DNA from: a virus
IMG/VR virus record: IMGVR_UViG_3300025141_000081
Location: 1 to 63,365 of that record
Direction: 5' to 3' (one strand)
Length of the DNA: 63,365 bases
The notes under the pieces were generated by a model, which saw nothing but the letters and a program-made list of their open reading frames with translations, searched no databases and was not told where the DNA came from. The position numbers were made by a program, and so were the translations under genes. Shown here in pieces: positions 13,584-38,514 of this stretch (position 1 is the first letter of the stretch; each line of letters opens with the position of its first letter).

Positions 13584-13955
13584 ATGGCCTGGAAGACTAA
13601 GGTTGATAGAAAGACTAAAACAAAATATTATAGTATAATTAATAAATTAACAAAAGAAAATAAAATTAACAAACAATTTGAATCTATGTTATCAAATTTA
13701 TCTTTAGAGGATATCATAGCTTTAAAGCTAGAACTCTCCACAAGACCAATAAAAAATCGACTTTATGGGTTGCCAATATGGGATAATCTTGTTAGAATAA
13801 CACAAGAAGCCGTGTTAAAGTATGCAGTATCAGCAACCCGTTCACAGGGTGAAGCAATGAGATTCTTAGGGTTGAAACACGTTCAGTTTAATAGATTAAT
13901 GAAAAAATACCAAATTGATTCATTTTTTAATGATTATGGTAAAGAAGAAATATGA
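13584..13955 (+). CDS. Fis-like helix-turn-helix DNA-binding protein
   Basis: 123 aa, ATG immediately after the previous stop. The C-terminal part (about 80-115), ATRSQGEAMRFLGLKHVQF followed by NRLMKKY, matches the Fis/NtrC-type helix-turn-helix (variable helix, AA-xx-LG turn, recognition helix, (K/R)K(L/Y) end). The N-terminus is basic and helical, with the segment RLYGLPIWDNL preceding the motif. It is likely a transcription or DNA-architecture regulator of the phage. A 217-base non-coding gap and a terminator-like hairpin follow, so it closes the operon. Confidence 0.65.
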   Translation: MAWKTKVDRKTKTKYYSIINKLTKENKINKQFESMLSNLSLEDIIALKLELSTRPIKNRLYGLPIWDNLVRITQEAVLKYAVSATRSQGEAMRFLGLKHVQFNRLMKKYQIDSFFNDYGKEEI

Positions 13956-14172: not shown

Positions 14173-14457
14173 ATGACTAAGAAAGAAGCTCTTTTGAAAT
14201 CACTAATATGGAGATTTGGTGTCTCAATACCAGTCTCTTTAATATTAAATTATATCTTTCTTGAAGAGATTTTTACTTCAGTAGTCCTAACTACATTAGG
14301 AGCTATAGTAGGAATAGTCTTTTATTATCTATTTGATTTGTTCTGGTTTAGTTACTTAGGGGGTGCTTTTGGTTTCGACGAGGTAATAGAAAAGAATAGT
14401 GCAAGCAGTCGTGATGACTTTAAAGATCAAACACTTGATAATTGCCAACAACAATAA
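14173..14457 (+). CDS. DUF2061-like membrane protein whose end overlaps the tmRNA gene
   Basis: 94 aa. Residues 7-62, beginning LLKSLIWRFGVSIPVSLI and including AIVGIVFYYLFDLFW, match the DUF2061 family: a K-(S/T)-xxWR start, two transmembrane helices and a YY-x-(F/L)-(D/H)-xx-W end. That domain ends near residue 62. The last 33 residues (from GGAFGFDEV) are encoded by the 5' part of the tmRNA gene at 14359 onward, so they are probably incidental. The overlap is 99 bases. The function of the family is unknown; host membrane modification is possible. Confidence 0.7.
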   Translation: MTKKEALLKSLIWRFGVSIPVSLILNYIFLEEIFTSVVLTTLGAIVGIVFYYLFDLFWFSYLGGAFGFDEVIEKNSASSRDDFKDQTLDNCQQQ

Positions 14458-14714
14458 TCAATTTGAACTTGCTCTAGCAGCGTAGTTCATGGGGTCTCTG
14501 ATGACCTTATTTCCCTATATCAGATAGCAGGTAGACTCCTGCGAAAATAAAAAATCAAAAATGGTTACCCTGATGGTATTAGGTGGACTCAATGATCGTA
14601 AGAGTGGCTGGAACTCGATCATTTTTTGTCTATTTTGAAAAATAGAACAAGCTTGTGAATGACTTGAATTGGAAATTATTTCGGACAGCAGTTCGATTCT
14701 GCTCACCTCCACCA
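14359..14714 (+). ncRNA. ssrA: phage-encoded one-piece tmRNA
   Basis: 356 nt. The 5' acceptor strand GGGGGTG (14359-14365) pairs with CACCTCC (14704-14710; one G-U), followed by A and an encoded CCA at 14712-14714. The 5' part has the conserved GGTTTCGACGAGG of tmRNA D-loops. The T arm is AGCAG-TTCGATT-CTGCT (14687-14703). The tag frame GCC at 14444 to TAG at 14483-14485 encodes ANNNNQFELALAA, with the Ala-rich end read by ClpXP-type proteases. Hairpin/pseudoknot-like sequence fills 14490-14640. It rescues stalled ribosomes and tags nascent proteins; a phage copy may retune this during infection. All the tRNA-like parts are intact. A T run follows the CCA. Confidence 0.95.
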
Positions 14715-14776: not shown

Positions 14777-14854
14777 CTACGACACTGCTGAGAAAATGAG
14801 GCTTGACAAAGCTTGGAAACAAGATTATATATGGAAAAGAAAGGAACATATTCC

Positions 14855-15151
14855 ATGTGTAAAAGATCTGAACGTAGAGAAGATACAAGAAGAAAGATGA
14901 TGGAATTTTATAAACTCCATCCTTGTATTGATTGTGGAGAATCCGATCCTAGAGTTTTAGATTTTGATCATATCAATAATAAAAAACATAATATTAGTAC
15001 ATTATTAAGAAAAGAATATTCTTGGGAATCCATTCTAAAAGAAGCAGAGAAGTGTCAGATTAGGTGTGCCAATTGCCATAGAAAAAAGACGGCTGTTGAG
15101 CAAAATCACTATACGAACAGAATGTTAAATGAGTTTTTTAATTCAAATTAG
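14855..15151 (+). CDS. HNH endonuclease, possibly a homing enzyme
   Basis: 98 aa from ATG 14855, with AAGGA at 14841-14845 and nine bases between; the frame extends upstream to a TTG at 14813. It has the compact zinc-stabilised HNH layout: HPCIDCGESDP, then LDFDHINNKKHNIS with the catalytic His, then SWESILKEAEKC and RCANCHRKKT with the second Cys pair and final His. Such enzymes nick or cut DNA and are often free-standing homing endonucleases. Position right next to the tmRNA gene is typical of a mobile insertion site. It has its own leader and strong ribosome binding site. Confidence 0.85.
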   Translation: MCKRSERREDTRRKMMEFYKLHPCIDCGESDPRVLDFDHINNKKHNISTLLRKEYSWESILKEAEKCQIRCANCHRKKTAVEQNHYTNRMLNEFFNSN

Positions 15152-15665: not shown

Positions 15666-17021
15666 ATGGCGAAAAAAACTTATGTCTTTGACACAAGTGT
15701 ATGTTTGACAGATGCGGAATGTATTCACAATTATGGATATAATGATATCATGCTTCCTTTGAAGGTATTAGAGGAAATTGATAACCATAAAAAACGTCAA
15801 GACAGCGCAGGAGTTAATGCTAGAAGAATTATTAGGGAACTAGATGACCTACGGAAAAAGGGGCCACTACAGGCCGGTGTTCGCCTAGGGAAAGGAAAGG
15901 GCATTTTAAAGATTCGATCCCGAAATCTCGATCTTTTACCGGGTGACCTACAAAAAAATCTTGCTGATCATATTATAATATCGACAGCCCTAGCTGAGAA
16001 TTCAGATAATGGGAATAGAAAAACTATTCTTGTAAGTCGAGATATCAATATGCGTGTAATCTGTGATTCTGTTGGCTTGACTAGCGAGGATTACACCGAG
16101 AATCGAGCAATTAATAAAGAATCAGACTTATACTCAGGATTCTCTACCTGCCTAGTGGATGACCAAACAATAGATTTCTTCTATGAAGGCGAGGCAGTCT
16201 TTATGGAAGAAGAGGAATATCCAAATCTAAATCCAAATCAATTTGTAATGCTAGTATCCAGTTCAAACGAAAAGAAGACTGCCTTATCAAAATTTGTAAG
16301 CTATCCTACGGCCTTAGAAAAAGTAATTCAATTTAGGGATGGGGTGTGGGGAGTTAAAGCAAAGAACAAAGAGCAGGCGTTTGCTCTGGACCTCTTGATG
16401 GATCCAGACATTAAGGTTGTTTCCTTAACTGGTAAGGCTGGGTCTGGTAAGACTTTAATAGCGATAGCCGCAGGCTTAGACCAGGTTGTATATAACAAAA
16501 AAGTTAAGGATAAACTAAAAGATGATTCTTTTTGTAGAACTCCCTATAAACGTCTTTTAGTTTCTAGGCCTGTTATGCCCATGGGCCGCGATATAGGGTT
16601 CTTACCAGGCTCAATAAATGAAAAGATGGCACCTTGGCTTGCACCTGTACAAGATAATCTTAAGTTCCTTACGGGAGATGATCAAACTACACTAGATGAT
16701 TACATGGAGCGTGGCCTCATAGAAATAGAAGCTCTAACATATATTAGAGGCCGATCAATAGCTAACGCATATATCGTTGTAGACGAGGCCCAGAACCTCA
16801 CAGCGCACGAAATTAAGACAATCCTTACCCGAGTGGGGGAAGGGACCAAGATTGTTCTAACAGGCGATATCGAACAAATAGATAATGTTTATATCAATGA
16901 AATGTCTTCAGGGCTCACCCATGCTATAGAAAAGATGAAAAGTTTTGACCTGTCAGGGCACGTAACTCTAGAGAAAGGCGAACGTTCTAAGGTGGCCACT
17001 TTAGCAGCCAAAGTATTATAA
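15666..17021 (+). CDS. phoH: PIN-PhoH fusion ATPase
   Basis: 451 aa. Residues about 5-155 are a PIN ribonuclease domain: YVFDTSV with the first Asp, LKVLEEIDNHK, and acidic residues at ADHIIISTA and VSRDINMR. Residues about 235-451 are the PhoH ATPase with Walker A GKAGSGKT (about 256-263), VSRPVMPMGRDIGFLPG, Walker B-like VVDEAQN (about 371-377), and LTGDIEQID. This PhoH2-type arrangement is known as an RNA helicase/ribonuclease in bacteria. phoH is frequent in marine phages; its role in infection is unsettled. Length fits the fused family. AGGAAGG lies upstream of the ATG. Confidence 0.93.
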   Translation: MAKKTYVFDTSVCLTDAECIHNYGYNDIMLPLKVLEEIDNHKKRQDSAGVNARRIIRELDDLRKKGPLQAGVRLGKGKGILKIRSRNLDLLPGDLQKNLADHIIISTALAENSDNGNRKTILVSRDINMRVICDSVGLTSEDYTENRAINKESDLYSGFSTCLVDDQTIDFFYEGEAVFMEEEEYPNLNPNQFVMLVSSSNEKKTALSKFVSYPTALEKVIQFRDGVWGVKAKNKEQAFALDLLMDPDIKVVSLTGKAGSGKTLIAIAAGLDQVVYNKKVKDKLKDDSFCRTPYKRLLVSRPVMPMGRDIGFLPGSINEKMAPWLAPVQDNLKFLTGDDQTTLDDYMERGLIEIEALTYIRGRSIANAYIVVDEAQNLTAHEIKTILTRVGEGTKIVLTGDIEQIDNVYINEMSSGLTHAIEKMKSFDLSGHVTLEKGERSKVATLAAKVL

Positions 17022-36297: not shown

Positions 36298-36681
36298 ATG
36301 GCTGGTTTTTCGCCAAAGTTGCCGCTAACGCTAGACCCAGATGATGGATATACCTTGACTAAAACGCTTAAGGAAGTCGCTAAACAAAACTTTAAAATGC
36401 TTGTTTTGACGAACCCAGGGGAAAGAATGATGGATCCTGAGTTTGGAGTTGGCATATTGGCCTATTTATTCGAGAACAATACCAGGACGACACAGGGGAG
36501 GATAGATGCTAGGATAAGAGAACAGACATCCAAGTATCTACCATATATTCAGATTGAGAACATTCTATTTAAATCTATGGAAGATAGGCCAGAGTTGGCA
36601 GAAAATTTCTTAGGAGTTTCAATAGCCTATAGCATAAAGAAGCTGGCCGTTAGAGATGTCTTAGAAATTCCAACAAATTAA
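36298..36681 (+). CDS. 25: gp25-like baseplate wedge protein
   Basis: 127 aa. NFKMLVLTNPGERMMDPEFG then VGILAYLFENN is the diagnostic GPW/gp25 signature, followed by IREQTSKYLPYIQIENI. It forms part of the inner wedge of contractile-tail baseplates. The family is labelled lysozyme-like but has no proven activity. Its ribosome site AAGGAGG lies at 36286, inside the preceding gene's end. Confidence 0.93.
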   Translation: MAGFSPKLPLTLDPDDGYTLTKTLKEVAKQNFKMLVLTNPGERMMDPEFGVGILAYLFENNTRTTQGRIDARIREQTSKYLPYIQIENILFKSMEDRPELAENFLGVSIAYSIKKLAVRDVLEIPTN

Positions 36682-36720: not shown

Positions 36721-38514
36721 ATGCCGTCTCGTAAAACACCGATAAAGTACACAAGCAGAGAATTCGATTCGATTAAAAGAGATTTGATCGAACATGCCAA
36801 GCGATACTACCCAGATACCTTTAAAGATTTTAACGAAGCTTCGTTTGGGGCTTTAATGATTGACACCGTAGCGTATGTTGGGGACATCTTGTCTTTTTAC
36901 CTCGACTACCAAGTTAATGAATCCTTTATCGATTCTGCGATAGAATACAACAATATTATCAGACTCAGCCGCCAGATGGGGTTTAAATATAAAGCAAACC
37001 CATCATCCTATGGCACCGTCGCTATATACGCAATAGTGCCAGCAAGCACATCTGGTCTCGGTCCAGATAGCGCTTATCTGCCAATCCTTAAAAAGGGAAG
37101 CGAGCTATCATCTACGTCAGGGAACACGTTTATACTAGATGAGGATGTAAGATTCGATGACCCTGCAAATGAAATAGTGGCAGCCAGGACCGATACCTCA
37201 ACAGGGCTTCCTACATACTATGCTGTAAGGGCTTACGGAAGAATCGTTTCTGGCATCTTTGGAGTTGAAAAGATTAGTATTGGATCTTTTGAGAGATTTC
37301 GACGGACAAAACTTGATTCCGATACAATAACAGAGGTTCTATCTGTTGTGGATTCGGAAGGGAACGAGTATCTTGAGGTTGAGCACTTGTCACAGAACAC
37401 TGTGTATAAGGAAGTCGTAAATAAAGGAGATAATAAAGAAACCGTGCCCTCCTTATTGAGACCCATGATAGTCCCAAGAAGATTTGTGGTTGAAAGAGAG
37501 CAGGATAACATCTTCCTGCAATTTGGCTATGGAGGCCCCTCGGAAATACGAAGTCCCTCGGTAGCCGATCCAAAAAATGTCGTCCTACAATTAAACGGGA
37601 GAGACTATATTACAGATAAGTCATTTGATCCTTATCGGCTTTTGACTACTGACAAATTTGGGATTGCTCCTGCAAACACTACTCTGACCATCACCTATAG
37701 AACAAATACGGCGGCTAACGTTAACGCTGCTGCGGGTTCGGTAACTAAAGTTATTCGGCCAATTCTAGAATTCAGCAACAGATCGGATCTGACAGATTCC
37801 AAGGTTACAAACATATCTACATCTTTAGAGTCTTATAATAATGAGCCAATAACGGGTGATACTTCACTGCCGTCCGCAGAAGAGTTAAGGAGAAGAACTA
37901 TTGATTTCTTTGCAACTCAAAATAGGGCTGTGACACAACTTGACTATGAAGCGCTGGTGTATGCAATGCCAGAAAAGTTTGGTTCTGTCAAGAGGTGTAG
38001 AATTGTTAGAGATTCCGATTCTCTTAGACGAAACCTAAATTTGTATTTAATTTCTGAAGACTCCGCTGGTAAGCTTACGGCCACCAACAGTACTATTAAG
38101 GAAAATATTAAAGTTTGGCTAAATAGGAATAAAATGATTAGCGATACAGTTGATATTTTAGACGCTAAAATAGTCAATATTGGTGTTGAATACGAAGTTG
38201 TTGTTGATGAAGAAGTCAATCGATTTAAGGTTCTGTCTGACTGCACGCAGGCAATAAAGAAATTATTTTCTGTTGCTCCGTTTATCGGAGAGCCTCTTTA
38301 TCTTACAGATATGTATAGCGCACTAAATAAGGTAAGTGGGGTTGTGGATACTAAGAGGGTCAACATAATCAAGAAAAAGGGTGCAAACTATTCAAGCACA
38401 ATGTTTGATATAAACGAAGCGCTGTCTGCTGATGGTCGCTATTTGTCGGTTCCTATTAATGTTGCGCTAGAACTAAAGTATCCAAATTCTGACATAACAG
38501 GAGCAATTTCGTAA
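36721..38514 (+). CDS. 6: gp6-like baseplate wedge protein (Baseplate_J type)
   Basis: 597 aa, slightly shorter than T4 gp6 (660). The N-terminal region IKYTSREFDSIKRDLIEHAK, FNEASFGALMIDTVAYVGD and ILSFYLDYQVNESFIDSA is the conserved start of gp6/baseplate-J proteins. The middle includes LPSAEELRRRTIDFFATQNRAVTQLDYEAL (about 380-409), also typical. It forms wedge dimers linking baseplate sixths. It ends TAATG with the following gene. Confidence 0.93.
   Translation: MPSRKTPIKYTSREFDSIKRDLIEHAKRYYPDTFKDFNEASFGALMIDTVAYVGDILSFYLDYQVNESFIDSAIEYNNIIRLSRQMGFKYKANPSSYGTVAIYAIVPASTSGLGPDSAYLPILKKGSELSSTSGNTFILDEDVRFDDPANEIVAARTDTSTGLPTYYAVRAYGRIVSGIFGVEKISIGSFERFRRTKLDSDTITEVLSVVDSEGNEYLEVEHLSQNTVYKEVVNKGDNKETVPSLLRPMIVPRRFVVEREQDNIFLQFGYGGPSEIRSPSVADPKNVVLQLNGRDYITDKSFDPYRLLTTDKFGIAPANTTLTITYRTNTAANVNAAAGSVTKVIRPILEFSNRSDLTDSKVTNISTSLESYNNEPITGDTSLPSAEELRRRTIDFFATQNRAVTQLDYEALVYAMPEKFGSVKRCRIVRDSDSLRRNLNLYLISEDSAGKLTATNSTIKENIKVWLNRNKMISDTVDILDAKIVNIGVEYEVVVDEEVNRFKVLSDCTQAIKKLFSVAPFIGEPLYLTDMYSALNKVSGVVDTKRVNIIKKKGANYSSTMFDINEALSADGRYLSVPINVALELKYPNSDITGAIS

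Follow-up and report, generated by a model that had tools for sequence, protein, structure and literature searches.

A complete one-piece tmRNA gene in a lineage of uncultured aquatic phages

The IMG/VR virus record analysed here over its entire 63,365 bases (hereafter, the window) carries a complete one-piece tmRNA gene, which in all likelihood provides the phage with a working rescue RNA of its own. The evidence comprises the gene, its structure, the covariation of its helices, the conservation of the tag at the peptide level, the inheritance of the gene in a phage lineage and the absence of SmpB from the searched records; from these we infer its expression, charging, tagging activity and benefit. 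The presence of tmRNAs in phages is already known, and what is new here is the lineage-wide conservation of the gene, together with a stop-less gene immediately upstream.

The record is very probably a fragment of a larger phage genome, and related phage records reach 160-205 kb. Because baseplate wedge proteins were found (PHROGs 261 and 219, at 36298-36681 and 36721-38514), we assign the phage to the contractile-tail type with a T4-type baseplate. The gene order is regulator-like gene, DUF2061-like gene, tmRNA, HNH endonuclease, PIN-PhoH, sugar/glycosyltransferase genes and tail genes (Table 1). The regulator-like protein gave no significant Pfam or PHROG family, and the HNH endonuclease also lies downstream of the tmRNA in four relatives (L002, L003, L004 and L007). 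Near the contig start, the gene at 363-1664 encodes a perfectly repeated protein unit, YGAVAQVAVLDSPSYSAAL, and the G+C content around it is 51%, versus about 40% in the rest of the contig.

Table 1 Features of the window in and around the tmRNA gene
Feature	Position	Strand	Evidence or remark
Small conserved protein, helix-turn-helix regulator-like in appearance	13584..13955	+	In relatives, likewise found in synteny upstream of the tmRNA
DUF2061-like small membrane protein ORF	14173..14457	+	62 codons up to 14358, no stop before tmRNA base 14359
One-piece tmRNA gene (ssrA), 356 nt, CCA encoded	14359..14714	+	ARAGORN; Rfam RF00023
Acceptor stem, 5' half	14359..14365	+	Pairs with 14704-14710; G3·U70 wobble
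Pseudoknot PK1 (AGUC/GACU, UGAU/AUCA)	14407..14429	+	Drawn from sequence; relatives
Tag reading frame, 13 codons plus stop, ANNNNQFELALAA	14444..14485	+	ARAGORN coding part 86-127
Hairpin H5, contains tag-frame end and stop	14464..14489	+	Drawn from sequence
Pseudoknot PK2 (AUGGGGUC/GACCUUAU, UCUGAU/AUCAGA)	14489..14524	+	Covarying stems in relatives
3' pseudoknot (ACUC/GAGU, AAUGAUCG/CGAUCAUU)	14587..14623	+	Best-scoring pseudoknot of the region
T arm AGCAG-TTCGATT-CTGCT	14687..14703	+	Sequence
HNH endonuclease, just 3' of the tmRNA	14813..15151	+	PHROG 2255, E 8e-24
PIN-PhoH protein	15666..17021	+	Pfam PF02562, PF13638; bait for fetching the phage lineage

Structure of the tmRNA and its tag

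ARAGORN and Rfam, two independent detectors, gave identical ends for the gene. The RF00023 match covers the full length of the model (positions 1-374) with a score of 108.4 bits (E 2e-41), compared with a gathering score of 47 bits, and the pseudoknots are present. The preliminary description had placed a complete one-piece phage tmRNA at exactly these coordinates, and every part that it listed is borne out by ARAGORN, Rfam and the sequence: the acceptor stem, GGTTTCGACGAGG, the T stem AGCAG/CTGCT and the tag frame. The acceptor, GGGGGTG...CACCTCC-A-CCA, forms seven pairs including G3·U70, which is the alanine identity element, and ends in an encoded CCA. All seven pairs, with G3·U70, recur in 51 of 51 unique relatives. 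The parts stand in one-piece order in the window, where the permuted acceptor halves of a two-piece tmRNA are not seen. No promoter or terminator stands out near the tmRNA. In three related phage tmRNAs (L132; L133, 1501-1834; L134, 1501-1871, minus strand), the T loop is GCAGTAC instead of the usual TTCGAxT; these tmRNAs were missed by ARAGORN and found by Infernal at 86-87 bits.

Across an alignment of 47 relatives, the helices of PK1, PK2 and the 3' pseudoknot are formed by different base pairs, and the stems of PK1 and PK2 are preserved through compensatory change, stem 1 of PK1 being AGGU/ACCU, AGGA/UCCU or AGCC/GGCU in relatives. The final helix ahead of the 3' half of H2 appears in the window to be a simple hairpin (UCUAUUUU/AAAAUAGA), while a pseudoknot is possible there in relatives. 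The free-energy fold of the tmRNA is only mildly unusual (z -1.4).

The window tag is encoded by GCC AAC AAC AAT AAT CAA TTT GAA CTT GCT CTA GCA GCG TAG, a frame with an Ala resume codon, a stop and a protease-type end. We derived tag statistics from the 51 unique relatives, which were fetched without regard to the tag. The Ala resume codon is present in all 51, in three codon forms, and Asn occupies tag positions 2, 3 and 4 in 51, 48 and 48 of them, respectively, with both AAT and AAC in use. All but one of the tags (50/51) end in LAA, 39 as RLAA and 11 as ALAA, the latter, rarer ending being that of the window. This synonymous codon variation at largely constant tag residues points to selection on the tag as a peptide. 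The lineage style can be written as ANNNxHFE...RLAA/LALAA, and no other IMG/VR contig was found to carry the window's own style (ANNNxQFE). A length of 13 residues, initially thought unusual, is not exceptional, as one scan returned tags of 9 to 25 residues.

With PhoH as bait, we fetched 80 related viral contigs, many of which are fragments. RF00023 exceeded its cut-off in 63 of them (38/50 and 25/30 records), and a scan with the tag pattern returned at least 118 stretches. In many relatives, the tmRNA is found at the same position, with the regulator-like gene on one side and phoH on the other. Across a large group of uncultured aquatic phages, the tmRNA is near-core and passed on by inheritance.

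Ribosome rescue and the upstream gene without a stop

As a working rescue RNA, the tmRNA would be transcribed together with the neighbouring phage genes, its ends would be matured by host enzymes, with RNase P acting at base 14359, and host AlaRS would charge it with alanine via G3·U70. Bound by host SmpB, it would enter ribosomes stalled on stop-less mRNAs and append ANNNNQFELALAA, the LAA end of which would direct the product to host Clp-type proteases. The phage tmRNA would thereby supplement or replace host trans-translation while infection yields broken mRNAs. The search for SmpB, positive in 10 bacterial control genomes, found none in the window or among 49 related records, mostly fragments; host SmpB must therefore serve, barring a phage copy in the unsequenced parts. 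The neighbourhood of the tmRNA contains nothing pointing to a role in late lysis or to redirected degradation of host proteins, both of which had been suggested at first.

ClpP-like proteins occur in 9 of 32 records, including all seven searched records of 160 kb or more. The large relatives L312, L313 and L314 (records G072, G012 and G006) each have a ClpP-like protease, with an adjoining GroEL-like chaperonin in L312 and L314; several records have two ClpP-like genes, and in a few, one lies about 2-6 kb from the tmRNA. We do not claim a tie between ClpP and tagging: one type stands beside a chaperonin and may be a prohead protease.

The frame of the DUF2061-like ORF continues into the tmRNA and meets a stop at 14455, inside the tag region. 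Its DUF2061 match is below the cut-off (17.5 versus 23.1 bits). L002 and L364 have such an ORF arranged as in the window, and that of L002 differs from the window's by 20 synonymous and 15 non-synonymous codon changes. The upstream slot in most relatives is filled by a distinct family, which we call MWK (consensus MWKVYKWNGHYIQGDLISKHSSE...). In 47 of 59 loci its stop lies within the tmRNA or straddles its edge, in all three frames, at tmRNA base 6 (24 loci), 25 (11 loci), 8, 38 and other positions. The same applies to three of the four loci with the DUF2061-like family, including the window, and in L397 the regulator-like gene likewise overlaps the tmRNA. The MWK protein structure (pLDDT 93) has an unnamed 71-aa protein as its best viral match, and comparison with solved structures gave no informative match.

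An ORF of 45 or more codons in sense orientation runs into the gene in 54 of 114 unique viral tmRNAs, versus 21 of 125 viral tRNAs, and some of these tRNA overlaps are chance frames. The bacterial control gave 20/106; on inspection by eye, these overlaps resemble chance frames arising from high GC content and do not involve a conserved family, so that the raw Fisher values are only a guide. In the same phages, protein genes often end inside the next tRNA, with the stop at tRNA base 8 or about 21 (L019:1709-2521, L020:2421-3278, L043:2110-2430 and others).

The plain reading of the overlap is extreme packing, in which the conserved stretch of the protein stops a few codons short of the tmRNA and the stop codon drifts. 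If the transcript is shared, the upstream mRNA would be non-stop after RNase P cleavage, because no stop precedes the tmRNA, and this lack may be tolerated because trans-translation is at hand. We consider it unlikely that, in this phage group, the tmRNA is processed from the 3' end of a protein gene, each maturation leaving a stop-less mRNA as a substrate for that very tmRNA; if true, this self-made substrate would tie the level of a phage protein to the ribosome-rescue state of the infected cell. Another reading places a regulatory circuit on top of rescue: RNase P maturation of the shared transcript would remove the stop of the upstream gene, and the protein would be tagged and destroyed while trans-translation works, accumulating only under rescue overload. 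The overlaps in the MWK and DUF2061-like loci and in L397, and the higher share of overlaps at viral tmRNAs than at viral tRNAs, speak for such a circuit. However, the distances are short, and chance could easily leave the final few codons free of a stop; a stop lies upstream of the tmRNA in 13 of 63 loci, and stops directly abutting it are also common, as tight packing predicts. Moreover, the tRNAs of these phages overlap too, if less often, the sequences are related and their counts not independent, and no rescue function is known for the upstream families, the MWK fold matching nothing informative. Taken together, we regard the circuit as quite unlikely. ArfA is a rescue factor produced from a non-stop mRNA; the likeness to it is confined to the logic of a non-stop mRNA feeding the tmRNA, if the overlap is used. 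In the phages it is the tmRNA gene itself that is overlapped, and the upstream proteins show no relation to ArfA.

The tmRNA might instead be a decoy or inhibitor that titrates SmpB away from host trans-translation. The DS6A phage tmRNA consists of little beyond the tRNA-like domain, and such a molecule is inhibitory (PMC4131195), but the tag frame, stop, resume context and pseudoknots, all under selection here, would be superfluous for a decoy, which makes this reading very improbable.

Origin of the lineage and relation to known tmRNAs

The rescue RNA of the window belongs to a single tree clade (support 0.77) that holds 117 of 119 viral tmRNAs and a copy from a WOR-3 island, apart from the sampled bacterial tmRNAs. 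Judged from these sequences, this is a phage-only tmRNA lineage. The bacterial side of the tree comprises about 90 tmRNAs, most of them chosen because their tags start similarly, together with those of Neomarinimicrobiota, and a donor beyond the sampled bacteria is therefore possible; since the viral tmRNAs form a separate clade, no donor can be named. The preliminary description had argued from the one-piece form against an alphaproteobacterial donor; the one-piece form holds, but the argument about the donor is weak, as no donor is visible at all. Capture of a host gene left behind by integration at ssrA, without a role, has in its favour that ssrA is a known integration site (PMC9004378, PMC3146451), but is scarcely credible for a full gene, rather than a 3' fragment, that in many relatives keeps a constant position, flanked by the regulator-like gene and phoH, forms its own clade and is conserved through a diverse lineage.

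The tag had also been proposed as a pointer to the donor or host, which our results do not support. In a scan for ANNN-type tags across 84,980 bacterial and archaeal species genomes, the HFE...RLAA style occurred on just two contigs, a phage contig of 9,956 bases binned in a Neomarinimicrobiota MAG and a contig of 4,669 bases in a Flavobacteriales MAG, while a WOR-3 MAG had a related tag within a phage-like island; the style of the window lineage was absent from bacterial chromosomes outside such phage-like stretches. The chromosomal tags of Neomarinimicrobiota (ADYGYMAAA, ANYGNVAYA) are unlike the phage tags. The 9,956-base contig (L251, G081:C9), which carries PhoH, the MWK protein and the tmRNA, was binned in MED589, which hints weakly at the host. 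Of 245 Neomarinimicrobiota genomes, one had a phage-type PhoH (62% identity); among 395 genomes from the phylum of the Flavobacteriales MAG, no PhoH exceeded the level of about 40% typical of cellular PhoH. These counts are insufficient, and we rejected naming a host via phage DNA in bacterial bins. On the chromosome of the WOR-3 MAG (L252, G083:C1:1256600-1276500), a second, phage-type tmRNA (ANNNANFDVALAA) lies near regulator-like and ClpP-like genes. This may be a prophage-like island or an assembly join; because runs of N adjoin it, we dropped it as host evidence.

A 2022 survey reported tmRNAs in 402 of 18,146 phage genomes (PMC9004378), about 2% of phages generally, compared with about 80% of the relatives fetched here. 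They are listed for mycobacteriophages and phage G (PMC4131195), and in huge phages they are reported along with SmpB (PMC7162821). The mycobacteriophage Bxz1 group and Bacillus phage G likewise have a complete one-piece ssrA with a canonical tRNA-like domain and a tag frame (PMC4131195, PMC9004378); the present lineage is distinguished from known phage tmRNAs by its tag style. Methylophilales phage Melnitz, which is marine, is likewise a myovirus with its own tmRNA, but that tmRNA is two-piece, resembles those of alphaproteobacteria and is accompanied by a glutamine riboswitch (PMC9004378), whereas the window tmRNA is one-piece and no riboswitch exceeded the Rfam thresholds in the window. The roles proposed for Melnitz resemble those first suggested for the window tmRNA and are sustaining the hijacked translation machinery and tagging host proteins for recycling (PMC9004378). 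Bacterial tmRNAs (RF00023) share all structural parts with the window tmRNA, but the sampled copies fall outside the phage clade, and tags such as ADYGYMAAA in Neomarinimicrobiota differ. Among named phages, in a collection of 50,697 records, matches to the window tmRNA went no further than 35-42 bases located at the T arm and 3' end, and we found no paper on the tmRNA of this phage group in the open-licence literature.

Phage tmRNAs are usually regarded as sporadic cargo, whereas in this lineage the gene is near-core and its tag appears to be selected as a peptide. The benefit that a phage may draw from its own tmRNA thus becomes testable across a whole lineage.
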